A DNA stretch of 22,802 nt from a virus: positions 1 through 22,802 of IMG/VR virus record IMGVR_UViG_3300001679_000074; one strand, 5' to 3'. Both the position numbers and the translations under genes were made by a program. Position 1 is the stretch's first letter; every line of letters starts with the position of its first letter. This document shows, one piece after another, positions 1-22,759 of the stretch. The notes under the pieces were generated by a model. The model was not told the origin of the DNA and did no database searches. It was given only the letters and a program-made list of their open reading frames with translations.

Positions 1-114
1 TGTTTGCAGTTCTTTCTCTATGTCGCCGACACCGAAGGGAAGATCGTTGATGGCACTAGAGCCCTGATCGCCAAGCTGATTCCCTCCGCTGTTACCAGTA
101 CCCGGATTCCTCAT
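1..114 (-). CDS. Partial phage tail-region protein, N-terminus only
   Basis: An open frame starts at ATG 114-112 and runs without a stop for 38 codons to the window edge. The start overlaps the upstream stop as ATGA, the coupling used throughout this operon, and this is why I accept it. The peptide is rich in Gly, Asn and Ser (begins MRNPGTGNSGGNQ) and then becomes more ordered (INDLPFGVGDIEKEL). Nothing identifies its function. By position, downstream of the tail tip and a small appendage protein, it may be another tail accessory or host-contact protein. Confidence 0.6.
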   Translation of the reverse strand, partial: MRNPGTGNSGGNQLGDQGSSAINDLPFGVGDIEKELQT

Positions 115-593
115 GCCGCATCCTCGATCGCTACAAGGTTGAAGGTCACCAGCATGACATGAGTCGAGTACGTTGAGGCTGTTGCTACGCCGGTGCTCAG
201 TATGTTGGTGGATGCAATAACATCGATGCCCAGGTTTCTGAGCGTGATCGTTTCGAGGGCAGAGGTGGCGTCTATCTCTATCTCCGCGAAATTATCTGTG
301 TCTGTCGAAAGACCGAATCGCATCGTTGGCGGGTTGCCTGATCCGCTGATTGATTTGCATGTGACTTCGATGCTTTCGACTTTCCAGTAGAATCCGCCCG
401 GCAGGGTGTAGACGTTGGTATCGCCTGTTGCTGTTGCATCAAGCTGAGCAACGACTGAGTACCTCGGAACCGGCCCCGCTGGTACGGGTACACGATCCGC
501 AAGCTCTCTGAAGTTGTTATCTATTGCAAGCCCCGCATCGCCTGTAGGCTGCGGGGTGTACACGGTAAGACCGTTGACTGTGGTTTGAGCCAT
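111..593 (-). CDS. Small tail appendage-like protein, 160 aa
   Basis: I place the start at ATG 593 (MAQTTVNGLTVY) rather than an upstream ATG at 632, because ATG 593 overlaps the stop of the preceding gene as TAATG. The N-terminal 35 residues, with a short strand, a Pro-rich segment and then IDNNFRELADRVP, resemble the attachment ends of phage fibre and tip accessory proteins. The rest is Thr/Ser/Ala-rich and predicted to be beta-strand, with no Cys and no membrane segment. It lies immediately downstream of the large tail-tip protein and is probably a minor tip or fibre-like component. The family is not recognised; the role is inferred from position and composition. Confidence 0.6.
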   Translation of the reverse strand: MAQTTVNGLTVYTPQPTGDAGLAIDNNFRELADRVPVPAGPVPRYSVVAQLDATATGDTNVYTLPGGFYWKVESIEVTCKSISGSGNPPTMRFGLSTDTDNFAEIEIDATSALETITLRNLGIDVIASTNILSTGVATASTYSTHVMLVTFNLVAIEDAA

Positions 594-2716
594 TAGCTGC
601 CCCCTCCGAATGTAAAGCTGAGTTCTGTGCAATCAGCAACAGAGACCGAATCGCCTGTATCGCTTCGGCGGGCTGTTGCCTGAATGCCCCACGTATCCCC
701 AGGCATGAATTCGCCCGAGGTAAATACGTTGTCTTGATTAACGATGCTTCTCACAAAGAAAATATCTGTGCCGATCGAATGGCTTACGTCCAAGGCTGAG
801 CTTTGAACGCCCCGCCTCACCCCTGTGAGGGTGTAGCTGCCATCGCCGTTGGCTGTCACGTCCCTGATGCTGATGAGTTCTTCACCAACAAGCATGAGGG
901 TGGTATCCGCCTGCCACTCAGCCGTTGTCACGCTCTCTAAGAGGCTGTCATTGATGCCATCAAGCTCAATATCGATGGTCTCGCTGGCGTTCTCTGTCGG
1001 CGTAGGGGTAGCCGCTAGAGCCGTCTGCAAGGTGCCTGCCGGGACGTACTGATAGCGAGTCCCGATGATTTGGTAGTTGCCTGTCAGATTCCGTCTGGCG
1101 TAGACCCTGAAGCTGTCTGTAACGTTATTCGGAGCCTGCCCCGCTGCAACGATGACTTCGATGCTTGAGCCCCCGAAGACCTTGAGAGGCGTGGGAAGCT
1201 CATAGACCGCAAAACGGGTTAGACAGTCGAGGGTTGAGGCGTCGCCGTCGTTCGCATCGTCGGGGCTACCAAAGTCCACTGAGGGAAGCTCAGCGAGTAC
1301 ATCCTCAATCGCAGAGACGGTAACGATCCCGCTCTCAATCTCTTTCTCGTCAACGGCTGTCACGATGAGGTCCAGAGTTTCATCTGAGCCCCACGATCCT
1401 GGAGCAAGCCTGATCCGCCTGCCCGCCCAGATGCGAGTGGATCGGAGGTTGCAATCGAAGCTCACAGCCCGCTGGACCGTGGACCGCTGATACAGAATGC
1501 GGTTGCCCTGTCTTACTGCCGTCTGTTTGTTCGTAATGGCTGTGAGATTCAGGGTATCGAAGCGAGCCCCGTAGAGTTGAAGGCTTCGCTCGTTCTGCAA
1601 GGGGAAGCTCTGGATAGCAAACTCGTTCTCAGCATCGGTCCACTCAACAGCTAGCTGATTGATGATGCTTGAGCCGCTTGCTCTTTCAACTCTGAGCGTG
1701 CCTTCGATGATGTGTGTGTCGTTGATCGGTATGTAATCTTCGTCTGTCAGATTCTGATTCTCACGGATGAGACTCATGGCGATCTTGCCATCAATATCTG
1801 TGAACAGATACGAGTTGGTCCATGTTGAGATATCGCTGAGGATGCTGATTGCTGGCTGCGAGGTCGAGGCAATGAAGCTGATGCCAAAGTTTTCGGCGAG
1901 GAACTGGTCTGCTGCATCTTGGAAGCTATCGAGGTTGAGGTAAGCGGGCGGAATCCCGAGCCCCCATATAGGATTGGTCAGGATCTCCGCAACCACATGA
2001 GCAGGGTTCGCATCGTTGCCAATCGAACTCTCCCCCGTGAGCAGATGGCTCGTCTTCGGGTAGCGGACGATCTCGAATGCCAGCGAGCTTGGCCAGTTGG
2101 GCGAGCTTCCGAGGTTGGCATCTTCGATGGTGGCGTAGCAGTAGCGATTGAAGCGAGGCGGGTTCTCGTCCAGAGCTTGAAAGTATGGCGAGTATGGCTG
2201 ACCATCGATGCCCCAATAGAACTGGAAAGTACCGAAGTCCGTGGTGACAGAGGTTGGTAAACCATCTACATAGTCGAGAGGTCCGCCCTCCCAGATGCTC
2301 TCCTGCCTGTTGGTGATATCGATGATCTTGTCTACCGGCCCCCAGCAGCAGAGCATGGCGGCAGAAACGTAGTAGCTAATATTGGGTGCATCACCCGAAC
2401 CTCCGAAGCCCGAGCCGCCCCCGCCTCCCGACTGCTGGCTGCGGAAGTTCTGATAATGCATCTGAAGGCCAGAGACTCTGCCTCTTCCGAAGATAATGGG
2501 TACAGGGGTGCCTTCTCTATTGCTTGTAAATCCGTTGAGGTTGTTGGCCGGATTGAAGGCTTGTCCTGCGCTCTCGCCTAGTAGAGCAGAGGCGAGGGTG
2601 ACGCCAGCGAGGAAGCCGATGTAAGCACCTTGCGGACCGCCACCAACAAAGAAGCCCGCTGCTGCACCGGCTATGCCAGCGCCTAATACCGCATACTCTC
2701 TCTCGTTAGCTCCCAT
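593..2716 (-). CDS. Large tail tip / host-specificity protein (J-like, GTA gp15-like), 707 aa
   Basis: This is probably the central tail-tip protein that closes the tail tube and mediates host contact. Residues about 8-45 are a Gly/Ala-rich hydrophobic stretch (GAGIAGAAAGFFVGGG), typical of the N-terminus of these hubs. Next comes a segment with PVPIIFGRGRVSG, a Gly/Ser linker (about 94-105), and a central region containing NPIWGLGIP followed by LNLDSFQDAADQF. That last pattern is a recurrent signature of phage tip-attachment proteins. The last 200 residues are beta-rich. Start ATG 2716 (MGANEREY) is preferred because it overlaps the NlpC stop by 11 bases and follows a purine-rich GGAAAGAG; ATG 2743 has no good ribosome site. 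The order after an NlpC/P60 gene matches phage and GTA tail modules. Confidence 0.78.
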   Translation of the reverse strand: MGANEREYAVLGAGIAGAAAGFFVGGGPQGAYIGFLAGVTLASALLGESAGQAFNPANNLNGFTSNREGTPVPIIFGRGRVSGLQMHYQNFRSQQSGGGGGSGFGGSGDAPNISYYVSAAMLCCWGPVDKIIDITNRQESIWEGGPLDYVDGLPTSVTTDFGTFQFYWGIDGQPYSPYFQALDENPPRFNRYCYATIEDANLGSSPNWPSSLAFEIVRYPKTSHLLTGESSIGNDANPAHVVAEILTNPIWGLGIPPAYLNLDSFQDAADQFLAENFGISFIASTSQPAISILSDISTWTNSYLFTDIDGKIAMSLIRENQNLTDEDYIPINDTHIIEGTLRVERASGSSIINQLAVEWTDAENEFAIQSFPLQNERSLQLYGARFDTLNLTAITNKQTAVRQGNRILYQRSTVQRAVSFDCNLRSTRIWAGRRIRLAPGSWGSDETLDLIVTAVDEKEIESGIVTVSAIEDVLAELPSVDFGSPDDANDGDASTLDCLTRFAVYELPTPLKVFGGSSIEVIVAAGQAPNNVTDSFRVYARRNLTGNYQIIGTRYQYVPAGTLQTALAATPTPTENASETIDIELDGINDSLLESVTTAEWQADTTLMLVGEELISIRDVTANGDGSYTLTGVRRGVQSSALDVSHSIGTDIFFVRSIVNQDNVFTSGEFMPGDTWGIQATARRSDTGDSVSVADCTELSFTFGGGS

Positions 2717-3359
2717 CGCCCTCTTGCTCTTTCCTCGCTCCATTCGTCAGCCGGTAGGCATAGACGAAACGCTTACGCCATCTGTTGTCTTCAAACCGTG
2801 ACTCAATGACCTTGTTTGCCTGATCGCCAGCAACGCTGTGCATGATCGTTCCTCTCTTTGTTAGTACGCCAACATGACTCTCAATACCTTTTCCGAAGCT
2901 GAATACGAGGATGTCGCCGGCTCTCAGTTCTGAGGGCTCATCGATCTTCTTGAGATCAACCGTTTCTTTCAGCTTCTCAAATGCGGGATGATGCGTATAG
3001 CTCTCGGTGAGGTACCACTGTTTTGCATACTCATCGGGGCTGAGGTCTTCTGGCAAGAGGCCAAGCTCTTTGTAGAGGCCAAGAACAAGACCGATGCAAT
3101 CGGTACCGTCTCTGGTCTGGCCCATGTGCCGGTAGGGCGTATCGAGCCATTGATCTAACGCTTCTTGATAGTCAGCCGTGTTGACCATTCCATATTGCGT
3201 AACGATCAGTTCGGAGTCTGGGGTATGGGGAGCACGCCATGTCTCGCTAGTGTTGAGTTTGTACTTCTCAACAAGCGTGGTAGGTTTCTTCTCTTTCCGC
3301 GAAGTTCTCTTTAGTGCTGCGGCCCTGCGATTGCAGCCGCATCCTCGTTTCTTTGTCAT
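2706..3359 (-). CDS. NlpC/P60-family tail peptidoglycan peptidase, 217 aa
   Basis: This is a tail-associated cysteine peptidase thought to cleave peptide stems of peptidoglycan during DNA entry. The NlpC/P60 domain covers about residues 65-205. The catalytic Cys88 sits in the motif DGTDCIGLVLGLY, His162 in SHVGVL, and the third polar residue is probably His174 in IMHSVA. The segment LRAGDILVF before the His motif is typical. The N-terminal 30 residues are very basic with two close cysteines (MTKKRGCGCNRR), which may be a nucleic-acid or metal contact and is unusual for the family. The start overlaps the upstream stop as TAATG. Its place between a DUF2163-like gene and the large tip gene is the standard tail-tip order. 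Confidence 0.88.
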   Translation of the reverse strand: MTKKRGCGCNRRAAALKRTSRKEKKPTTLVEKYKLNTSETWRAPHTPDSELIVTQYGMVNTADYQEALDQWLDTPYRHMGQTRDGTDCIGLVLGLYKELGLLPEDLSPDEYAKQWYLTESYTHHPAFEKLKETVDLKKIDEPSELRAGDILVFSFGKGIESHVGVLTKRGTIMHSVAGDQANKVIESRFEDNRWRKRFVYAYRLTNGARKEQEGDGS

Positions 3360-4252
3360 TAGAGCTTGTCCGTTGCTAGATTTCTAAGCTGCACGTACTT
3401 GAATGAACCGCCAAAGTTCTCTCTGTTGTCGAACTTGGCACATCCATTCTCCCCGTCTTTGGTCCGGTCGCAGCCGTAAGTCACCGTGACCTGAACGGGA
3501 GCACGTATCGAGTCCGGTATTTTGGTGTAGAGCCGAAAGCCCCGAGCATCGGCGATGTTTGCCACAAAGGGAACGTCTACGTTTATCATGGCCGAATAGC
3601 ATTCATCGCCAGCAAAGGTAATCACGCCGTTAACGAATGCATCGTCTACAAAGTCGTTAGGCACATCTGCGAAGACAACTGCTACGCTTCTTCTATCTCC
3701 CTGGATGTGGACTGCCGCTCCCTCGAAAGTAAATTCTTCCTTGTTGGCTTTGCATGTAAACGGATCGTACAGGGCATACGGACAACTCTTGAATGCCAAG
3801 ACCCTCGGGAACTTCTCTTTGAATCGCTCGTTGAAGCCGGTGAAGCTCACCGTAACCGTGTTATCTCGTCTATCGATGTTCTCGCTCTCACCCCAGAATG
3901 CAACGATGTAATCTTCTGAGGTGTATCTCGCCTTGGTCTCGGTTGTAAAGACCTGAAAGACTTTAACCGTGAGGGTTTCGGCGATAGCGCTTGAGATAAA
4001 CTCAGCGATGTGGGTGCTGTCGAAGTTGGTTGAGATCGTCAGCCGATCAGATGATTCATCGGCACTTCTCTGTATCTGGCCTCGGCTGAGGTAGAGAGGC
4101 GGGAAGACAACATCCTCGCCCCCGATCTCAAGCGTTACGGGTACGTCCGATGTGGTGCCTACGAATGTCTTGATGCAATCTGAGTCGTTGTAATAAAACT
4201 TATAACATTCGCAAAGTTGTGATTCTTGTTTTTGTCTATCGGTACTTGGCAT
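3359..4252 (-). CDS. DUF2163 / BR0599-like minor tail protein (GTA gp13-like), 297 aa
   Basis: This is a tail hub-type baseplate component. The N-terminal half has the typical pattern of a beta-barrel repeat (VTLEIGGEDVVFPPLYLSRG), a Thr/Ser segment and AFWGESENIDR. The C-terminal half has cysteine pairs in the family layout: SCPYALYDPFTCKAN at about residues 158-172, then YGCDRTKDGENGCAKFDN with NFGG at about 258-281. The family is known for the C-x(7-8)-C and GCD motifs followed by F-x-N. It is separated by two bases from the stop of the 268 aa gene and overlaps the NlpC start as TAATG. It probably forms a hub for the tail tip. Function comes from family and context; the motifs are directly seen. 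Confidence 0.78.
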   Translation of the reverse strand: MPSTDRQKQESQLCECYKFYYNDSDCIKTFVGTTSDVPVTLEIGGEDVVFPPLYLSRGQIQRSADESSDRLTISTNFDSTHIAEFISSAIAETLTVKVFQVFTTETKARYTSEDYIVAFWGESENIDRRDNTVTVSFTGFNERFKEKFPRVLAFKSCPYALYDPFTCKANKEEFTFEGAAVHIQGDRRSVAVVFADVPNDFVDDAFVNGVITFAGDECYSAMINVDVPFVANIADARGFRLYTKIPDSIRAPVQVTVTYGCDRTKDGENGCAKFDNRENFGGSFKYVQLRNLATDKL

Positions 4253-4254
4253 CC

Positions 4255-5061
4255 TTATTCCTCGGCCTCGCCGGATACGAGAGTGACTCCTGCGGCCTCA
4301 TCCAGCGATTCGCAATCAGTTGTAAGCAAGGCGTAGTCCGTATCTTCGAGAGCTAGGTACTGCGTCTCGCTGAGAGTCGTGTAGCACAGAGCCGTCAATT
4401 CGATGACGTAGCCGGGGTCTTCCCCGATCTGATCCGCCTCTCTAATCTCTTCGACGAACGAGATGTTCACGTCCAACAGGGTTGAGGTCTGATGGCTGTA
4501 CGTGATCGAATCGCTTGCAAAGGTCACTCTGTAGATGATGCTGCCAGAGGTTCCTGCGGGAAGAGCTATACCAATGCCAGCATCAAAGGTGATCGTGGTA
4601 TCTGTCCAGCTTGCAACGATGGCTTCGAGGTACTGACCCGCAAGATAGAAGAACATTCTCTGCCCCACGTACAGCGAGACTTCATGCTCTTCAACTTGGA
4701 TGGTGTCAGTGCCCAGGACGGCATCAGAGGCGAGGGTTACATCGGCCTGCCAGCTTGGAAGACAGAAGCTCTTGTTGAGCCCTTGCATCGTCTGGAAGAA
4801 ACTCTCCATCTCGGCAAGATCAACGAGGTTGTTGAGTCTGTAGCTGTTGCGAAAGACAAGCGGGTTGGGCGTCTCTCTGTCCGTGTCGAGTCGGGCGGGT
4901 CCGTGGCCCAGAGCAATCAGATTGAGCGATGACTCGGCTTGGTACCGAGAGGGGTTCGATCTCTCGGGTACAAAGTCAAACAGATAGCATTCGGTCTTTT
5001 CGTCTACCGAGGTTAGCGAGTACCCGAGGGCTGGGGCAGACTGTCCGCTCTGGCTACTCAT
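4255..5061 (-). CDS. Distal-tail-like protein (gp12-type position), 268 aa
   Basis: This is probably a ring-forming tail-tip protein. It is predicted to be almost all beta-strand, with landmarks SRYQAESSLNL (about 38-48), FCLPSWQADVT (about 99-109) and TTITFDAGIGIALP (about 154-167). The same order of landmarks occurs in the first 205 residues of the upstream 841 aa protein, so the two probably share a fold. The C-terminal 40 residues are rich in Asp, Glu and Leu (QYLALEDTDYALL), a pattern often repeated in phage tail proteins. The start overlaps the upstream stop as ATGA. It occupies the position of GTA gp12 (DUF2460). I do not claim membership of that family from the sequence alone. Confidence 0.62.
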   Translation of the reverse strand: MSSQSGQSAPALGYSLTSVDEKTECYLFDFVPERSNPSRYQAESSLNLIALGHGPARLDTDRETPNPLVFRNSYRLNNLVDLAEMESFFQTMQGLNKSFCLPSWQADVTLASDAVLGTDTIQVEEHEVSLYVGQRMFFYLAGQYLEAIVASWTDTTITFDAGIGIALPAGTSGSIIYRVTFASDSITYSHQTSTLLDVNISFVEEIREADQIGEDPGYVIELTALCYTTLSETQYLALEDTDYALLTTDCESLDEAAGVTLVSGEAEE

Positions 5062-7583
5062 GATTCGCCTCCTGTATCGCAGCAGTCGTTGCCGTCGCCA
5101 TCGAAGCCGGGGTCATACCAGCGGTAGGTCCAGAGGGTCAGACCCTTGGTGCCATCGATAAGCTCGTTGTCTTTCGTGGTTGGAACGCCTGCAATCGAAT
5201 CGTTGACCGTGATGACTGAGGCAGTCAGCGGTACCGATGGCCAGTAGAACAGGCAGTTATCAGGATCGGGCTGGCACCCCAGTTGATCTGGCGGGCCATC
5301 GCCAGTCCAGTTGAAGACTCGGGTCTCGCCAGTCTCTTGGATGAGCCCTTCGCCCGGGCAGTTGAAGCCCTCGGGGAATTGAACAAACGAGACGGCATCA
5401 TAGATATAAACGCTGTAGAGATTGCAGGGACAATCTACATCGAAGCAATCGTTTGGTGCCTGCAAGATGGCATCGATATCTGGATCATCTAAAAAAAGTG
5501 GAGTGAGTTCTACATCAACAGGATTGAGATTCCATCCGTTTGTACCGAGGCTCGCCTTGATCTCTGCCTCATAAGGATTGCCGTTGTTCTGCCAGTCGTC
5601 TTCCTCTACATACTCCCAGCGTAAGTCTTTCCTGTTCTGCGCAGGAAAAAGCCAGTCGTAATTGCAGCGGCTGATCTTGAGTCCGTACCCCTCCGATCCT
5701 CTCCACGGATTATCGAACTCGGGGCACTGTCGTATGCAGTTGTTGGTAGCAAAGAAGTATTTCTCACGGTCGATAGACTGCTGCAAGTTTACCGTGATGG
5801 TTTTGATGTTATCTGTCTTGTAGCAGGCTCCACCCGCTGCATCGTAACCGGGTATCACGATCGTCCTGGACGTGCCACCGATCTGGTAGTTATCGTGGCC
5901 GTCGCAGCCGTCGAAGTCGCCTACATCCGTACCGGCACCGCTGTACTTATCAAGCCCATCTAGAAGCTCATCAGGGACTTGCAGGCAGCTCATCGTATAG
6001 CAGGCGGTAGCCGTCACTGTAAGGGGCATGGTGATTGCATCGTGCCCATGCGGTATATCCAGCCGCGGGTTGTTCGGGATCTTGAGGCTCACGTCCCATG
6101 CCCCGGTCCCGTAATGCACCATGCCCATAGAAAAGAACGTGTCCGAACCGAGGCCAGAACCGTAACAGGAGTTGTACTTCGCATCCTGTACAGTCGCCCC
6201 GTCCCACGGATACCCAATATCAACGGAAACCGGATCGTCGGGGTAGAGGTCTCGGCTCTGAGAACAGCCTGCTGTCAGACTCGTTCTGTAGTTCCATGTG
6301 GCTGCCAGCTGAGGGTGGGCATACTTGTAAGGTGCTGATGACCGCCCGATGCATGGATCGTCCCTGTAGTGGTCGTAGCCATCGCCATGAGTCGTCCCAT
6401 CCGTGTAGCTGGCGATCTCATCGCTGAAGACATAGATATTGAGGAGGCTGCCCCAAGCCCCCTTCTTGTTGTTGATCGCTGTTTCACCCGGGGATTGGTC
6501 CTCATCATGTTCGATGACGAGACGGACCTCAAGGGTGTATGTTCCCCCGTCCCCGCCTGTGTACTCTCTCGTTTCTCGCCAGAGCCATCTGGATACAGTC
6601 GGCTCAAGATAGAACCAACTGCTGTTGCCAGCCTTGACATGATTCCAGTGGCGAGAGGTTGAAGTATCCCATGTATAGGGAAAGACAAAGCCGAGTTCCC
6701 ACTCGCCATCAAGAGCATCGATCATGTTGGTTAGATCAGCGGTTGTTGAGTGTCCTGCGTTCTGCGATATCTCGTTCTTATCGAAACGGATAAAGAACGT
6801 CTGCGGGGGGGCTACGTCTTTGGCTCTGAACGCTGGGCGTTCCTCTGAAGGATTGCCGCAAGGCGTATCGAACATCGGGTAAGCGAGGTACTCGCCACTG
6901 ATGAGGCATGGCTCGCAGATTTCGCCACCATCGTCGGGGCCATCGGGATCATTGCGGCAATCCAGATCAACAGAGGCGGAATTGAGGGCCGTCTCGCTGG
7001 CTTCTACCCATGTAATCGACCCCTCGCAGACCGTATCCGTGATCCACTGGAGCTTTACCTCGGTGGGGTAACAGGTAAATGCCTTGAAGCAATAGATATC
7101 ATCATCGCCGGATCCAGAGAGCGAGTATGTAGCGTCAAGCTCAAGCGTGATCGTGGATGAATCGAAACCCGTTGCATCTACGGTTGCGGCATAGTAGACC
7201 GATGGGCTCTGCCAGATGATGACCCTATCGCCCGCCTCGATTGCCTGATAATCCGTCTTGTCCGAGATATCGAACTCAACGTAGGTAACAGTATCACCAG
7301 AGCCATCCGATGCTGGGAGGTCCGAGAGATCGGTAACAATGCGGTTGATACGCCAGTCTGGAACACTGAAGAGTTGGTTGGTGTTTTTACGCAGCTTATG
7401 CAGAATGTCCGAAGACTCTTGCCCGTTGAACTGCGTTGTATATTCGATGGTGACGAGGGGCGTTGTTCTGAGAGCAGACCGTTGGCGTAGCTTGTAACGG
7501 CTGGTGCTTCTTGCGGTCTTGAAGCTCTTGGTGAACTGTACAGGCTGGGACCAATCGGGATCGTAGGGGAATGCGATAGCCAT
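5058..7583 (-). CDS. Large Cys-rich tail-tip protein with distal-tail-like N-terminus, 841 aa
   Basis: Residues about 1-205 resemble the following 268 aa protein (STSRYKLRQ, LFSVPDWRI, SSTITLELDATYSL, GSITWVEA in the same order), suggesting a tail-tube-end or distal-tail module. Residues about 206-841 are an unrelated, aromatic-, Asp-, Gly- and Cys-rich region. I count about 25 cysteines in the protein, many in pairs such as EPC, VDCPC and DCCD, which is very high for an intracellularly assembled tail protein. This region could be a receptor-binding or metal/disulfide-stabilised tip extension. The start overlaps the tape-measure stop as TAATG and the stop overlaps the next gene as ATGA. No family name is recognised for the C-terminal part. 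Confidence 0.68.
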   Translation of the reverse strand: MAIAFPYDPDWSQPVQFTKSFKTARSTSRYKLRQRSALRTTPLVTIEYTTQFNGQESSDILHKLRKNTNQLFSVPDWRINRIVTDLSDLPASDGSGDTVTYVEFDISDKTDYQAIEAGDRVIIWQSPSVYYAATVDATGFDSSTITLELDATYSLSGSGDDDIYCFKAFTCYPTEVKLQWITDTVCEGSITWVEASETALNSASVDLDCRNDPDGPDDGGEICEPCLISGEYLAYPMFDTPCGNPSEERPAFRAKDVAPPQTFFIRFDKNEISQNAGHSTTADLTNMIDALDGEWELGFVFPYTWDTSTSRHWNHVKAGNSSWFYLEPTVSRWLWRETREYTGGDGGTYTLEVRLVIEHDEDQSPGETAINNKKGAWGSLLNIYVFSDEIASYTDGTTHGDGYDHYRDDPCIGRSSAPYKYAHPQLAATWNYRTSLTAGCSQSRDLYPDDPVSVDIGYPWDGATVQDAKYNSCYGSGLGSDTFFSMGMVHYGTGAWDVSLKIPNNPRLDIPHGHDAITMPLTVTATACYTMSCLQVPDELLDGLDKYSGAGTDVGDFDGCDGHDNYQIGGTSRTIVIPGYDAAGGACYKTDNIKTITVNLQQSIDREKYFFATNNCIRQCPEFDNPWRGSEGYGLKISRCNYDWLFPAQNRKDLRWEYVEEDDWQNNGNPYEAEIKASLGTNGWNLNPVDVELTPLFLDDPDIDAILQAPNDCFDVDCPCNLYSVYIYDAVSFVQFPEGFNCPGEGLIQETGETRVFNWTGDGPPDQLGCQPDPDNCLFYWPSVPLTASVITVNDSIAGVPTTKDNELIDGTKGLTLWTYRWYDPGFDGDGNDCCDTGGES

Positions 7584-8035
7584 TATCTCAACACCCTCTT
7601 TACCGCCTCACGGTTTCGGCTGATGATGTTGAGATTGACTTGCTGGCCCTGCCTCTCGGCTATGGCGTTGTAGATATCGTTCGCATCGAATGCGTTGATG
7701 TTGGTGATAGCGGGTGTGCTGGCAACGATGCTTGATGCAACCCGCTCCTGCTGTGCTGCGTTGAGTACGATCTCTCCCGGGGTGAGAAGGGCTCTTACAG
7801 AGTCACGTCCCCTGATCGGACCATCGACCATGCCGCCCATCGCAAACTTCTGTATCCCTTGGGTTGTGGCGATGCCTCCGCTGTAGGCCCCACCACCAGA
7901 GAAGGCATTGAGAAGCGATGAGTACCAGCTTGCAGAGGCACCGCCCGCATCGGTTCCCGCTGCCGATCTGAGCAGCCCGAGCACAGCCGCCCTGGCTAAG
8001 AGCTTGGTGATATCCGCCACAATGGACCGGACCAT
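7583..8035 (-). CDS. Tape measure protein, C-terminal part (after in-frame TAG)
   Basis: This is the C-terminal end of the tape measure, in the same frame as the 642-codon part that ends at TAG 8062-8060. Only eight sense codons separate the TAG from this ATG. The region carries the usual tape-measure tail: amphipathic helices (VADITKLLARAAVLGLL), a Gly/Ser-rich segment, then KFAMGGMVDGPIRGRDSVRALLTPGEIVLNAA, cut here into two recognisable halves: the GGMVDGP motif and the LLTPGEIVLNAA motif. These are well-known end motifs of phage tape measures. There is no Shine-Dalgarno before ATG 8035, so an independent gene is unlikely. It is either made by read-through of the TAG or is a severed fragment. 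Confidence 0.8.
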   Translation of the reverse strand: MVRSIVADITKLLARAAVLGLLRSAAGTDAGGASASWYSSLLNAFSGGGAYSGGIATTQGIQKFAMGGMVDGPIRGRDSVRALLTPGEIVLNAAQQERVASSIVASTPAITNINAFDANDIYNAIAERQGQQVNLNIISRNREAVKRVLR

Positions 8036-8059
8036 ATCGGAGAAGGCTTCAGATACGCT

Positions 8060-8062
8060 CTA
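8060..8062 (-). other. In-frame amber codon interrupting the tape measure gene
   Basis: The minus-strand codon at 8062-8060 is TAG. The same frame is open for 642 codons before it and 158 codons after it, ending at TAA 7585-7583. The local context is GGG ACC TAG AGC GTA. A single-base change from AAG or CAG would explain it. Whether it is a mutation, a sequencing error or a recoded codon cannot be told here. Confidence 0.9.
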
Positions 8063-9988
8063 GGTCCCGTCTATGAGCGAGTCAAAGGCACTGTTCATGT
8101 TGCCTTCGATGACAACGCCGAGGGCGGGTAGCTGCTCTTCTAGGTCCGCAACCTGCTCTTCGAGGCTGACGAGTTCGGCTCTGAGCTGCGATGCTTTCTG
8201 AGCATCGTTGGCTTGTTCTGATAGTCTGATGAGATCGTTGGTGAGTTTGATACGCTGCTTGAGGGTGCTGATTTGTAGCTTTCGGGTCTGCCCCTCAATG
8301 TCTGAGAATGTCCCTCTCTTGGCGAGAATATCCGCTCGCCCCTCCGTGTTGAGATCCCTGATATAGTTCTCGCCCGTAACCTCCCGATACTCAAGAGCTA
8401 GATCGATCGCCTGCTTTCTCAGCCTGATGCGTTCTATCTCAAGGTCTTTGAGTTTCTCTTCAAGCTCGCCTACTTCGGTTAGGGAGTTCTTGAGGTTGTC
8501 ATATTGAAGCTGGTTGATCTCTCCCTTGCCGTTGATCTCTTCAGCCTCTTTGCGATGCTTGGCAAGAAGCTTGTTGGCTATCTCTAGGTTCTTCTCTAAT
8601 ATCTCTCTCTGATCGGATAGCTCTTGAGATTGTCTATGAAGCACTCGTACTTGGTCGTAGAGGATGCCCGAGTTTTTCAGGCGAGCTAATTCTATCTCTC
8701 TTTCTCTGCGAGCTATATCCTCAGCCGTAAGCCCGATGCCTTTCTCTGAGAGTTCGGCTTCGAGTTCTGCGATTCTCTCAACATTGATGGCTTTCTGAGC
8801 TTGCTGTTGATCTTTCTTTCTCTGTGCACGATCGGCGATAGCTTCGCCCGCATAGTCGGCTGATCGCTGCGAGAAGTTACTAAAGTCGAAGTTGCGAATG
8901 GACTCGCCAAGGGTTCGCCAGAATGCATAGATGGTTGACAGGGCGTCCATCACCCAGTCATAGACGGTATCTAGCATCTTGCCGATGCCATCAATGCCCT
9001 CAGTGAAGTTGTCAAAGACTTTGGCTCTTGCATCATCTACGCCAGAGAGCCCATGCACCAGTCCTGCCACTGCCTGCACCAGTAACAGAATCACACCAAC
9101 GTATAACCCGTTCTTGAGTATGACGCCGATGCGTATTAACGATGCAAGTAGAGTCTTGATCGCTTCGCTCGCTCGTTTCGCTCCCTTTGCAAACTGATTC
9201 GATCCCATGAGACTGAGGCCAGCTATTGCAGCCGTACCGCCTATCGCCGGCCCTGTCAGCCTGTTCTCATTGAGCTTGCCGAGGATCGATGTAAACAGAT
9301 TGATGGCCGGACCCAGAACCGAATTGATCGTTCTGGCTACCTCAGCCAATGAATCGTTGAGGGTTGAGAACAACCGACTAAAGTTGTTGCGGCTAAAGAT
9401 GGGGCTCTGACTGTCGGCGATGTAGTCTGCACGCTGAGATTGAGTCAGCCTTCGGAACTCAGCAGGCGATGCGCCGATCAGCGGGCCAAGCGTCTCAGAG
9501 ATTTCACCCGAGATAATGGCCCTCTGGACCGATTTGGCGATCTCATCAACACCTGCCGTAGATCGCTGAGCCAATCCACTGATGGCCTCGTTGAGTCTGA
9601 GTGTCTGATCTTCTGCCAGACCCAATACAGCCGTATAGCCCTGGAACTGAGTGACCTGAGCCCGGGTAAAGCCGCTGGCTCTTCCGAGTTCCGTGGCCTG
9701 CCTTCTCAGAGATTCACGGAAGTTGTCTGATAGTTTGGTGTTGCGGGTCAGCGAGTCTGCGAGGTTAGTCTCTGCCCGCTCTAATGCCTCGAACTGAACT
9801 ACCGCCTGTCTCAGAGTCGCAGTTGATACGAGCCCCGCAAACAGATTGCGGAAACCGTTACCTAGCCTGCTGACTTGCTGTTGAGTCTGGCTTACGGTCT
9901 GATTGAGCTGATTGAACTGGGCGTTGACTTGTTGGAGTAACGCCTGATTCTGGATGCTGATGTTGATGAGGGCGTTGAGGTTCGCCAT
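8060..9988 (-). CDS. Tape measure protein, N-terminal 642 codons (tail length determinant)
   Basis: The tape measure sets tail length and is ejected ahead of the DNA. The N-terminus is Gln/Asn-rich coiled coil (about 10-45). It is followed by FRNLFAGLVSTATLRQAV and helical segments with LGRASGFTRAQV and RSTAGVDEIAKSVQRAI, typical of these proteins. A hydrophobic, probably membrane-inserting stretch lies at about 284-311. Heptad-rich coiled coil fills about 395-620. The frame ends at TAG in SAFDSLIDGT-stop, exactly where related proteins continue into a SVSEAFSDM-like helix, and that helix is encoded right after the TAG. Read through, the product would be 801 positions long. The start overlaps the end of the chaperone T frame by 131 bases. 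The start is ATG with only a weak upstream GAAGAA. Confidence 0.88.
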   Translation of the reverse strand: MANLNALINISIQNQALLQQVNAQFNQLNQTVSQTQQQVSRLGNGFRNLFAGLVSTATLRQAVVQFEALERAETNLADSLTRNTKLSDNFRESLRRQATELGRASGFTRAQVTQFQGYTAVLGLAEDQTLRLNEAISGLAQRSTAGVDEIAKSVQRAIISGEISETLGPLIGASPAEFRRLTQSQRADYIADSQSPIFSRNNFSRLFSTLNDSLAEVARTINSVLGPAINLFTSILGKLNENRLTGPAIGGTAAIAGLSLMGSNQFAKGAKRASEAIKTLLASLIRIGVILKNGLYVGVILLLVQAVAGLVHGLSGVDDARAKVFDNFTEGIDGIGKMLDTVYDWVMDALSTIYAFWRTLGESIRNFDFSNFSQRSADYAGEAIADRAQRKKDQQQAQKAINVERIAELEAELSEKGIGLTAEDIARREREIELARLKNSGILYDQVRVLHRQSQELSDQREILEKNLEIANKLLAKHRKEAEEINGKGEINQLQYDNLKNSLTEVGELEEKLKDLEIERIRLRKQAIDLALEYREVTGENYIRDLNTEGRADILAKRGTFSDIEGQTRKLQISTLKQRIKLTNDLIRLSEQANDAQKASQLRAELVSLEEQVADLEEQLPALGVVIEGNMNSAFDSLIDGT

Positions 9989-13436: not shown

Positions 13437-14675
13437 TTATGCTGGGTTGACGATTCGGGCGATAGCGCTCGGGTCAGTCACCTTGAAGTCAAACTCCGAG
13501 TGCAGTCTCCATGCGGAGATCGCAGCATCGAAGTTGTAGAACGGGTCGTAGGCCAAACTAATCTGACCTGTTACGCCGATAGCACCCGCTCTGCGAAGGT
13601 TGCCGAAGTACATGAGCGCATCAACCTCGGAGCCCTCGTTGAGAGAGGCTTCGGAGTTGGGGCCGATGATCTCAAGCGGCCTGATCGGGTAGCCGAACAA
13701 CGTACCGAATGGCGACTCGTTGAAGCCCATACGGATGACCGGCTGCCCAGTTGTATCCTTGAGGCTGTGGAGCGAATTCAAGGTTCTGCGGTTGCAGTAC
13801 CAAGCGGTATCGCCATCAAAGGCATAAGTCTCAACGAGATTCATGCAGGCGATGAGAGCATCAACGCCCTTCGGGTTGGCATCGTCGGGAGTACCGGATG
13901 CGTTGACCTTGAAGAGATCGCCAAGAGCCCCGAGGGTTACTTCGCTGATGTTGCCGTCATTCTCGTATCCGGTGATGCCGCCGTTGTCAGCATCAGATGC
14001 TCCGGTGCCTCTCCAGATTACGTAATCTTCCCTGTAACCGTGGGCTCTCACGAGTCCCCTACCGATGATGTCAGCGATGCTGAAACGGGACTGGTTGAGA
14101 ATAGACTGAGAAGCCTGCGATAACGCCTTGATCACCTTGGGGTCAAGGGTCACGGTGTCGTAAGCCTCTTTGCTTACAGCAGCGCTGACGCCCTCTGCCT
14201 TGAACTGAGCGGTTGTACCGCCATCGTTGAAGGGAAGCTCCAGACTACCGCCATCGATGGTGTAAACATCGTGGTACTGCCTGGACTGTCCGTAAGTGTT
14301 GAAGCGATCTTGAAGCGTGTTGCTGAAGAGTTCGGGCACAAGGTGTCCGCCCTCGGCATCGGTGCCTACGTTGGCGTAGTCAGCCTTGGCTAGCGAGTCT
14401 TTGCGAAGCTGACTCTGCTTACCCTTGCTGATATGTCCGTCCAGAACAGCATCGGTGATGAAGCTGACAAACTCATCGGCCTGCTCATTGCTGTCCCAGA
14501 ACTTTGTTTTGAGTGGTGCCTTGCCGCTGGTGGCTATTTTCTCGTAAGCCTCTAGTCTCTCGGCAAGTTTCTTTACTTCGGATTTAGTAGCTGTCTCTGT
14601 CTCGCTCTGCTCGATACGATCGTTAAGCTCACTAATCTCCTTGCTCAGGTTGTTTAGTATCTCCGGTGTTTCCAT
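13437..14675 (-). CDS. Major capsid protein, HK97 fold, 412 aa
   Basis: This is the main shell protein. Residues 1-50 form an acidic, Glu/Lys-rich coiled coil like the scaffolding delta domain that the prohead protease removes. At about residues 103-120 stands the sequence VGTDAEGGHLVPELFSNTL, the typical start of the HK97 core with its N-arm. The rest follows the family pattern (SLELPFNDGGTTAQF, VTLDPKVIKALSQASQSIL, spine-helix region, and YDPFYNFDAAISAWRLHSEFDFKV at the end, cited here as the segments YDPFYNF and WRLHSEFDFKV). The start ATG 14675 lies inside the protease gene, overlapping it by 44 bases, after a GAGAG-type site. It is the best supported gene of the head module with the portal. 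Confidence 0.92.
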   Translation of the reverse strand: METPEILNNLSKEISELNDRIEQSETETATKSEVKKLAERLEAYEKIATSGKAPLKTKFWDSNEQADEFVSFITDAVLDGHISKGKQSQLRKDSLAKADYANVGTDAEGGHLVPELFSNTLQDRFNTYGQSRQYHDVYTIDGGSLELPFNDGGTTAQFKAEGVSAAVSKEAYDTVTLDPKVIKALSQASQSILNQSRFSIADIIGRGLVRAHGYREDYVIWRGTGASDADNGGITGYENDGNISEVTLGALGDLFKVNASGTPDDANPKGVDALIACMNLVETYAFDGDTAWYCNRRTLNSLHSLKDTTGQPVIRMGFNESPFGTLFGYPIRPLEIIGPNSEASLNEGSEVDALMYFGNLRRAGAIGVTGQISLAYDPFYNFDAAISAWRLHSEFDFKVTDPSAIARIVNPA

Positions 14676-15483
14676 TTTCTATGTACTCTCTATTTTTCAT
14701 GTTTTTTACTTTCGATAGGATTTCCATGAGTTGCTTATCCAATTCGATATCAGACTGATCCGGGGTGGACTCGCCGGGCTCGTCAGTCTCGTTAGCCTCA
14801 GCGGTCTTGGTGGTGACTATCTCATCGAGACGGTTCTCAATCGCATCGATGGCCGATGCGGAATCCGTGAGAGCGGCTTCGATACGGTCGAAACGCTCTA
14901 TGAGTATGTTGATCTGTTCCATATTCATCTGTTCTTCCTGCTCATCTGTCTCTCGTTCTGCCTTGATGCTCAGCGCTACGGGATTCGCAGGCAGAGAAAC
15001 GACGCTTACCTCGGTGAGTTCCGTAACGAGGTACCGAAATCCTTCTATCTTGCCGTTTTTCTCGATTGTCTCTGCCTCTGTGACGGATGCGCCGATTGAA
15101 AAACTCAGGCGTCCAGCCTTCTCTGCTACCTGCCTCCACTCTCGGGCTAGCTCTGTATCAAGCCATTCCCATTCCATAAAGACAGCAGGCACCGATTCGC
15201 CCTTGATAACAGCCGTACCCGCATAGATAACCTTGGCAAAGCCGACTTGAGGCGGCTTCCCATCGGGCAGCTTGCGGAGATGCGAACTCAGGACTGGGAG
15301 CGGGTTTGTCTCGTTGTAACGAGGCCAGCTCATTCCCTTGACAACGACTACATCGCCATCGGCATCTGGGATCTCAGCAGTGATGAGGGCACGCATGATG
15401 CCGCCCTCCATTTTCTCGATACGACCAAGGGGTACCTCAATCGTCTTGATTATCGTCTTCTTGATTTCCTTTTCTAGTTTCAT
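14632..15483 (-). CDS. Prohead maturation protease (S78-like) with C-terminal scaffold-like tail, 283 aa
   Basis: This enzyme cleaves the scaffold portion of capsid subunits during head maturation. The catalytic domain covers about residues 15-170: DADGDVV near 40-46, His68 in LSSHLRKLP, the probable nucleophile Ser129 in LSFSIGA, and Glu158 in LTEVSVVSLPANP, the family's third-residue segment. Residues about 180-283 are acidic and helical, as in fused protease-scaffolds. I use ATG 15483; a GTG at 15492 in frame would add three residues. It overlaps the portal end by 47 bases. The stop is TAG followed at once by TGA, the only TAG terminator among the structural genes here. Confidence 0.85.
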   Translation of the reverse strand: MKLEKEIKKTIIKTIEVPLGRIEKMEGGIMRALITAEIPDADGDVVVVKGMSWPRYNETNPLPVLSSHLRKLPDGKPPQVGFAKVIYAGTAVIKGESVPAVFMEWEWLDTELAREWRQVAEKAGRLSFSIGASVTEAETIEKNGKIEGFRYLVTELTEVSVVSLPANPVALSIKAERETDEQEEQMNMEQINILIERFDRIEAALTDSASAIDAIENRLDEIVTTKTAEANETDEPGESTPDQSDIELDKQLMEILSKVKNMKNREYIENGNTGDTKQPEQGD

Positions 15484-17509
15484 ATATCTCACTCGCTAAT
15501 TGCTTGAGGGTTTCTCTTGGGATGCTGTTTGAGTACGTGCGTACCATCTCCAGCATCTCTTGCTTGCCGTCAGCGAACTTGAGAAGCTTGCTCAAGTCGC
15601 CATAGAAACGGCGTGCTACGGCTCGCTGATCCGAAGCTCCGATCGTGTCTAATGCTTTGTCGAGGTCTCGAATGCGGATGGTCTTGCCGTTGGCTAAACG
15701 CTTGAGGCTCACGCTCCGCATTTCGTGTATGCAGCGGCTCGCCCTCTTGAGATCCTGAGTCTCATACTTGAGGGCTGGCCTAGGTTTGCTCTCTGCCTTC
15801 TCAGCGAGGTACTGAGCCTCTAGAGCCTTGATGCGATCGAAGGTCTTGCCTTCTCTCAGGATCTTCTCTGCTTCGTCCTGAGTCTCTGTCTCGGCTTCTG
15901 GATTCCTGGGCTCTGAAGGCTGGCCCTTCTGGGCAGCGATGCCCTCGATAAGCTCGCTGAATGCCTCGCTGATCGTGCCTGGATCCGCAAGTGGGAAACT
16001 CAAGAGGGCAAACAGTCTGCCCGCCTCTCGGGGGATGATGCCCTCTGCTACCCGTTCTGCGATCAGGACCAAGGAAGCAATCTGAGCACCGTTGAGTGCG
16101 GTTCTCTCTACGGCATCCTGACCCTCTGCAACAGGAGCTCCCGATACCTCAGCCTCATCAGACTCGGGCGTGATGGGCAGGAGGTTGTTGTTGCGGTAGA
16201 CCCGATCCCGAAGCTCGTTGTTCTCATCGTCCGGGGTGTCGATGCCAATGTACTTGAAGGCTGCGTTGCTGGACCATTGGCCCTCGTTGATGAGCTTGAG
16301 GGCCATATCTACCCGCTGGCGGGCAAGCTTGTTCATAATGGGCAGAGTCGAAGGATCGAAGAAACCAACAATGCGAGAGTCGGCGTGAACGTCCAGACTC
16401 TTTTCTAATGCAGCCTTGGTCAGAGCCGATAGCTTGCACTTCTTGGTCTTGCCCTTGGTCTCTGTCCTCCAGTCGTAGCGGTCTAATAGCTGCCCCTGGA
16501 ATACATCGCTGGCATTCTGGAGCATCGGCAGGAGGGTGTTCTCTGCGAAGCTTTCGAGTTGCTCAGTGGCAGCATCGTATTTAGCGTTATTCCAGTCGCC
16601 GGAAATAATCGGCGGCACAGAGTACAGCTTGTAAATGTCCTGCTCAGACATTTCTATCATCTTGTCAGCGAGCGAGTCCTTGAGGCTTGTATCGAGCTTC
16701 TTGATCTCATACTGACCCTGAGCAAACAGGACGCCATGCTTGCCCTTGCCCCCGAAGAGAACCTCATACTGATTCCTCATGGCCTTGAGGGATTGCGGGC
16801 TCATCGTTTCGGGCATGTTGATGATGGCCGATGGCATCGTGTGGTTTTCAAAGAAGCTGGCGGCATGGTCCCAGCCGTAGTAGTAGCTGGCGATCTCGTT
16901 TGAACCGGACAGAATCGGGCTGATACCACGGACTCCGCCCAATGCGAAGTTTCGGCCATAGAGCATGTTGGTAGATGATGCGAGTAACTGTGCCCCATTC
17001 GGGAAGTTGTACTGCCACTGGATTACGTCTGAAATGTCATTTGGATTTGCGGGCTGCTCTACTCTCAGCCGGAATGGGTCCAGGACTACAAGGCTGGTGG
17101 GCTTGCCCATGATGTCCTGGTCGTAGCTATCGCCTGTTGGCATGAAGACCGCATACTCGCCAGCTAAGAGATACCACGAATAGATGGCTTGTTTGAGTTG
17201 GTACTCGCTCCAGAATCGGCTTGGTTTATTTATAAGGTTGTGAAGTTCGCCTCCGATGATCTCGTTGCCCGTGACCCGATCGAACATGCGGAAGCGGGCT
17301 CTGGCTGCGTTGTCAGCAATCTTGGTGATTGCGTTTCTGATCGGAGCTACCTTGAGGTAATGCTCTTTGACAGAGAGTTGGCGGGCATTTCTTTGTGCTC
17401 GCTGGAAGATTTCATCGAAGCTGCCCGTTGCGTTGGCCGCATCGTTATCTACAACATCGGTAACGGCTTTCTCTAATGCCTTTCTCTTGAATATGTCTCG
17501 TAATCCCAT
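15437..17509 (-). CDS. Portal protein with long C-terminal extension, 690 aa
   Basis: The portal forms the dodecameric DNA channel at one capsid vertex. Residues about 1-420 follow the phage portal pattern: APIRNAITKIADNAARA near 54-70, HNLINKPSRFWSEYQLKQAI near 89-108, AGEYAVFMP, then YGRNFALGGVRGISPIL and AMRNQYEVLFGGKGKHGVLF, and the crown-side IYKLYSVPPIISGDWN. Residues 460-520 hold LNGAQIASLVLIAERVAEG with IPREAGRLF, a helical motif often seen at portal C-ends. Residues about 530-690 are an additional charged helical region ending in an acidic tail (QEDDNQDD). With 690 residues it is longer than the usual 400-550. It lies between terminase and protease; the start has AAGGAT six bases upstream of the ATG. 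Confidence 0.88.
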   Translation of the reverse strand: MGLRDIFKRKALEKAVTDVVDNDAANATGSFDEIFQRAQRNARQLSVKEHYLKVAPIRNAITKIADNAARARFRMFDRVTGNEIIGGELHNLINKPSRFWSEYQLKQAIYSWYLLAGEYAVFMPTGDSYDQDIMGKPTSLVVLDPFRLRVEQPANPNDISDVIQWQYNFPNGAQLLASSTNMLYGRNFALGGVRGISPILSGSNEIASYYYGWDHAASFFENHTMPSAIINMPETMSPQSLKAMRNQYEVLFGGKGKHGVLFAQGQYEIKKLDTSLKDSLADKMIEMSEQDIYKLYSVPPIISGDWNNAKYDAATEQLESFAENTLLPMLQNASDVFQGQLLDRYDWRTETKGKTKKCKLSALTKAALEKSLDVHADSRIVGFFDPSTLPIMNKLARQRVDMALKLINEGQWSSNAAFKYIGIDTPDDENNELRDRVYRNNNLLPITPESDEAEVSGAPVAEGQDAVERTALNGAQIASLVLIAERVAEGIIPREAGRLFALLSFPLADPGTISEAFSELIEGIAAQKGQPSEPRNPEAETETQDEAEKILREGKTFDRIKALEAQYLAEKAESKPRPALKYETQDLKRASRCIHEMRSVSLKRLANGKTIRIRDLDKALDTIGASDQRAVARRFYGDLSKLLKFADGKQEMLEMVRTYSNSIPRETLKQLASEIYETRKGNQEDDNQDD

Positions 17510-21499: not shown

Positions 21500-22759
21500 A
21501 TGGTTGATCTGGAAGAGATCCAATATGACTCTTGGGAAGTTGTGCCGATCGAACTAAAGTACGAAGGTAAACTATGGAAACAGTTTGATAGTTACACTGA
21601 TTTTTGTGCATGGTTTAATCCTACCTGGTCTGAATTGCACGGCATAGTGCAGAATTTATCTCAGCATAGCGGGAAGGATGTAATCATACAGGCGGACAAG
21701 AACCGCAGAAATATAGAATCCAATCTACGCAATAATCCTGGATGGTCTATACGGGATCAAATGAGACATCTTGTTGATCTTGTTTCTAGTGTAAATACAA
21801 TATTAGCTCCATTTATGGGGAATGAACTAAACTTAGAACGTTTGCTGTCTTATGCTAGAGAATACGGTGTACTTATGGCAGCTGCTTATTGGTCGAGCTA
21901 TAACGATTGGAGAATCAACAGTCCCGACCAGCCTAAATGTCAGTTAGGAATTATCTACGGCTACTTCGATCAAAAATTATTATCGAGTGATGAATTTGCC
22001 AAGATCAATTCAATGACAGCCACCGAAGATGCATTGAGGATCAAGAATCTATTTATCAAGTGGTATCATAAACAGAAAAAAACGACCGAAAAAGCTCAGT
22101 GTGATTTAGCAGATACCACAAATAAATTACAGGAATTGATCGATAAGCAAGTTAGTTGGCGACAGCGATTTGTGGATGTATCGAAGAGGTATCAAAGTAT
22201 TTTTGCCGCTTCAGCAAGATCTAGGTTTGATGCTGAGCTTAGACATTACCGAGAAGACCTAGCACTAAAATCTCCGGTTGATTACTGGGACACTAAAGCT
22301 AGCGATCACTCAAGATATGCGAGAAGGTACGCCATAGCCCTTGGTCTAGCAATTGGATTATCGTTTCTATTTGTATTCGCTCTTTCTGCATTCTTACTGT
22401 TGCCAATTGAAGAATCTGTAGTCAAATCGCTATACGGCAAAGAGCACGAATACGACAAGATAAATCCATTCGTGAAGGCATCAGCGGCTGCCTCTGTATT
22501 AGCTCTCGTTTACTGGACCCTTCGCATCATCAATCGTAATCTTCTGAGCCATCAGCACCTCGCTTCTGATGCGAAAGAGCGTGTAGTTATGGCTAAGACT
22601 TACAGAGCTATTCAATCTGATAAAGATCTTGCTAATGACGCTGATATTAATATTATCCTGAATGCATTGTTTAGACCTGCATCCGATGGATTCATCAAAG
22701 ACGATTATGGTCCCGCTCATCCTGTTATAGACCTGATACTCAGCAGGCAGAATAAATAA
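21500..22759 (+). CDS. Two-pass membrane protein with DUF6161-like C-terminus, 419 aa
   Basis: The long N-terminal part (about 1-270) is soluble, aromatic and charged, with a coiled-coil stretch at about 175-255. Two hydrophobic segments follow, at about 277-302 (IALGLAIGLSFLFVFAL) and 326-345 (KASAAASVLALVYWTL). After these comes a cytoplasmic-looking tail: SHQHLASDAKERVVMAKTY (about 350-368) and ILNALFRPASDGFIKDD (about 386-402). I recognise that tail as the DUF6161 pattern (H-x(3)-DA-x-ER-x-x-M-x-x-TY and LFRP-x-x-DG-x-x-KDD). Function of the family is unknown to me. The gene is more AT-rich than the structural genes and points away from them, which fits a moron or defence-type cargo gene. 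GAGGG precedes the ATG by ten bases. Confidence 0.75.
   Translation: MVDLEEIQYDSWEVVPIELKYEGKLWKQFDSYTDFCAWFNPTWSELHGIVQNLSQHSGKDVIIQADKNRRNIESNLRNNPGWSIRDQMRHLVDLVSSVNTILAPFMGNELNLERLLSYAREYGVLMAAAYWSSYNDWRINSPDQPKCQLGIIYGYFDQKLLSSDEFAKINSMTATEDALRIKNLFIKWYHKQKKTTEKAQCDLADTTNKLQELIDKQVSWRQRFVDVSKRYQSIFAASARSRFDAELRHYREDLALKSPVDYWDTKASDHSRYARRYAIALGLAIGLSFLFVFALSAFLLLPIEESVVKSLYGKEHEYDKINPFVKASAAASVLALVYWTLRIINRNLLSHQHLASDAKERVVMAKTYRAIQSDKDLANDADINIILNALFRPASDGFIKDDYGPAHPVIDLILSRQNK

Follow-up and report, generated by a model that had tools for sequence, protein, structure and literature searches.

A lone in-frame TAG in the tape measure gene of a metagenomic siphophage is most likely a private mutation or a sequencing error

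A single in-frame TAG codon interrupts the tail tape measure gene of a phage contig, which raises the question of whether this codon is read in an unusual way to yield a full-length protein, or whether it is a private lesion of the gene or of its recorded sequence. The window, that is, the whole stretch of DNA analyzed here, is a 22,802-base IMG/VR virus record that carries siphophage late genes on its minus strand, with terminase, portal, capsid, tail genes, tape measure, tail tip, and a J-like tail protein. The tape measure frame opens with an ATG at 9988 and runs for 642 codons (8063-9988, minus strand) up to a TAG at 8060-8062, beyond which the same frame remains open for a further 158 codons and closes with a TAA at 7585-7583 (7583-8059, minus strand). 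This TAA overlaps the ATG of the next tail gene, which is intact (5058-7583, minus strand). The layout can be read directly from the sequence, as it had been in a preliminary description of the locus.

The post-stop part of the gene matches several families annotated in PHROGs as "tail length tape measure protein" (phrog_37649, E=3.3e-10; phrog_24; and others), in agreement with its earlier assignment as tape measure sequence. The upstream 642 residues alone gave no PHROG match; they are called tape measure here because of the continuity of the frame and their homology to unbroken genes in two relatives. The nearest of these, L002 (IMGVR_UViG_3300037782_000181), is an IMG/VR phage that is syntenic across nearly the whole window, and its unbroken tape measure gene of 801 codons aligns end to end with the gene studied here at 53% identity. 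The other, L009, is a 10-kb contig filed in the metagenome-assembled genome (MAG) of Phycisphaera sp. NORP138, with an unbroken tape measure gene of 833 codons and 46% identity. Neither homolog contains an internal stop. The pre-stop part aligns lengthwise to both, the whole 801-codon frame does so over its full length, and the alignments show neither gain nor loss of a residue at the junction. Hence, on this comparison, the two halves form a single gene that is interrupted at one codon. With its C-terminal sequence match and its place in the tail operon, the gene resembles other siphophage tail tape measures (PHROGs 37649, 24, 934, and 339), from which it differs in that one TAG interrupts it in this contig.

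Two other origins of the break were considered and rejected. A frameshift in place of the stop does not fit, since both halves lie in the same frame and in register with L002 and L009, and an intron, intein, or insertion does not fit either, as there is no extra residue at the junction.

At the position of the stop, L002 has AAG (Lys), which is one substitution away from TAG, and L009 has GCA (Ala). Tape measures at a greater distance, drawn from viral contigs and from genomes in the same class as the L009 MAG, carry one of three residues at this site: Lys (as in L002, and in L003, L004, L006, L007, L096, L098, and L099), Ala (as in L009, and in L094), or Gly (L095, L097, and L101). A stop was found at this site in none of these relatives, of which only L002 and L009 are close enough for whole-length alignment, and the stop is therefore private to this contig. 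The preliminary description had held that AAG in relatives would mark the stop as an error or a private mutation, and the codon of the nearest relative favors precisely these two readings. It had also placed the split exactly before the conserved C-terminal region, a view that has to be revised: the TAG takes the place of the middle residue of a conserved motif, SLIDGT-x-SVSEAFSDM (in shorter form, IDGT-x-SVSEAF-DM), which spans the stop.

If the stop had long been in place, the codons behind it might show signs of decay. Identity to L002 is 67% over the 158 residues after the stop, compared with 52% for the upstream part generally, and the last 100 residues before the stop (54%) are conserved about as well as that upstream part. 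The pN/pS ratio against L002 is 0.33 downstream and 0.45 upstream, although these ratios are rough, with synonymous sites near saturation. Private changes in the window and in L002 number 23 and 11, respectively, downstream of the stop, and 81 and 61 upstream, which amounts to no significant downstream excess (Fisher p=0.33). Neither the pN/pS ratios nor the private-change counts show relaxed constraint or a long decay after the stop. Because the downstream codons are still constrained and have no excess of private changes, the stop would have to be young if it is real; an old pseudogene would not be expected to keep such constraint. An intact, constrained downstream part is nevertheless predicted by a young mutation, by a miscall, and by silent suppression.

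Taken as a real mutation and a miscall jointly, a private nonsense change rather than recoding is probable, with considerable confidence. The prospect that the TAG is specifically a recent private nonsense substitution, that is, a real mutation in one phage or prophage, is about even. Directly observed are the TAG itself, the lack of a stop in relatives, the way in which both halves form one continuous frame, and the absence of other lesions; that the base is truly in the DNA we infer. Ribosomes would then stop at residue 642, the best-conserved stretch of the protein, its C-terminal 158 residues, would be lacking or made in amounts too small to be of use, and this copy would be expected to form no tails or defective tails unless complemented. 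Several points weigh against a real mutation. Siphophages cannot do without their tape measure, and nonsense alleles of it should thus be rare among free virions; the window yielded no lysogeny gene by which a tolerant prophage state would be proven; and suppression or a miscall would likewise leave the downstream frame fully intact. A rather unlikely alternative, though one of some weight, is that this single metagenome contig has the codon at 8062-8060 wrong, through a miscall or a mis-assembly, and that the real gene is unbroken. The stop is indeed seen in a single contig, its codon is one base off that of the nearest relative, and everything else is intact. Moreover, an independent copy of the same phage that could confirm the codon was not found among the viral contigs scanned, although near-identical records may escape such scans; the GenBank phage collection gave no match at the DNA or protein level, and terminase and tail-protein scans for relatives yielded no further close tape measure. 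On the other hand, all other genes in the window that have an L002 counterpart align to it without interruption, so that the consensus is good overall, and an isolated substitution error falling in a key gene represents a small target. We therefore favor a real mutation over a miscall, with weights set by judgement, since sequence alone cannot decide between the two. A known parallel is offered by premature stops in the tail fiber gene of T5-like isolates, where likewise one isolate carries the stop and close relatives are intact (PMC5816814); here, the affected gene is the tape measure, known from a metagenome contig alone.

Functional suppression or natural read-through of the TAG, through an amber suppressor tRNA of host or phage or through near-cognate decoding, would produce forms of 642 and 801 residues. 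The intact and constrained downstream frame is in keeping with such a mechanism, and the window represents only part of the phage, so that a tRNA gene could lie elsewhere. Nor does any other gene in the window rely on TAG alone as a stop: the sole TAG-terminated gene (14632-15492) has a TGA directly following, and hence the window cannot show TAG alone terminating. In L002 and L009, however, the NlpC/P60 gene ends in a single TAG followed by a sense codon. The tape measure is the only interrupted gene in the window, with one in-frame TAG in about 6,800 late-gene codons, whereas phages with code 15 or a similar code have in-frame TAG in many genes; genome-wide TAG recoding was rejected on this ground. 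In phAss-1, for instance, 41 open reading frames contain TAG and three suppressor tRNAs are encoded (PMC10607447). An in-frame TAG in the tape measure gene is a feature shared with TAG-recoded phages (code 15; phAss-1, PMC10607447; crAss-like phages, PMC9523058), but phAss-1 has it in tens of genes together with suppressor tRNAs, compared with one TAG in one gene here, and the relatives of the window carry Lys, Ala, or Gly at the site rather than the Gln that recoding would lead one to expect. A tRNA with a CUA anticodon, which the preliminary description had proposed to look for, did not turn up: there are no tRNA genes in the window or in L002, and of the 37 found in the L009 MAG none has a CTA anticodon, a result qualified by the weak host link, as this MAG may be incomplete and is tied to the phage by homology only. 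The stop is not conserved among relatives, as a programmed read-through site would be; the 100 bases after it fold no better than shuffled sequences (z=0.23), giving no sign of a stimulatory 3' structure; and no Rfam element was matched. Taken together, we consider suppression or read-through improbable. A stronger version, in which the phage relies on leaky reading of this one amber codon to produce mostly truncated and some full-length tape measure, in a ratio that matters for tail assembly, is very improbable. Were the TAG both real and read through, the phage would possess a tail protein made in two forms through stop-codon leakiness. From the explanations listed in the preliminary description, nonsense mutation and base-call error thus emerge as favored, and evidence for a two-form, recoded protein was not found among the features analyzed.

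The downstream part could also be made as a protein in its own right. Reinitiation can occur about 25 bases past a stop, and the first internal ATG, at 8035, lies at about this distance from the TAG, opening a mechanical reading frame of 150 residues (7583-8035, minus strand). This frame lacks a Shine-Dalgarno sequence and is unlikely to be a gene of its own: the anti-Shine-Dalgarno pairing at ATG 8035, at -1.4 kcal/mol, is the weakest of 24 starts tested, consistent with the earlier remark that no ribosome site precedes it. In addition, the stop interrupts a conserved motif, and the gene is split in none of the relatives. A shortened form is conceivable, given that lambda and T5 tape measures undergo cleavage as the tail is assembled (PMC10038345). 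Even so, a genuine split, in which the C-terminal 150-158 residues are supplied by reinitiation in place of a lambda/T5-type proteolytic cut, seems to us barely credible. A private nonsense change thus remains the preferred reading, and the interruption can in all likelihood be put down to an ordinary mutation of recent date or to a sequencing error, rather than to a new reading of the genetic code. As a matter of caution, recoding should not be proposed for a lone in-frame TAG in an otherwise well-kept phage gene from a metagenome until relatives have been compared.

Several features of the neighboring genes and of the relatives merit description. The gene pair preceding the tape measure (10744-9858, minus strand; L002, 9168-10003; L009, 758-1521) resembles the lambda G/GT-type chaperone pair. 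Its second reading frame is shifted by -1 from the first; in it, homology among all three sequences sets in before the first gene ends (window, RERVSPETIINTLIRHGHSYD; L009, RSRISPDQIIGRLIPHGHNYS; L002, RERVSAERILGKLIPRGHRYS), and there is no conserved start codon. Homology that begins before the stop, together with the lack of such a start, suggests -1 frameshifting in this pair, but no obvious canonical slippery heptamer was seen near the stop of the first gene.

On the other side of the tape measure, the 841-residue product of the tail gene at 5058-7583 (minus strand) has a tail assembly PHROG match limited to its first 150 residues, and its long Cys-rich remainder is common to L002 and L009. 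The gene preceding the capsid gene closes with a tandem TAG TGA that lies within the start of the capsid gene (14632-14675, minus strand). The stretch of L009 syntenic with the phage group of the window (1-9017) lies within the Phycisphaera sp. NORP138 MAG, a placement that gives a weak hint of Planctomycetota hosts for this group. The longest plus-strand open reading frame of the window, at the edge of the late operon (21500-22759), matches DUF6161 (PF19658, E=1.5e-19).
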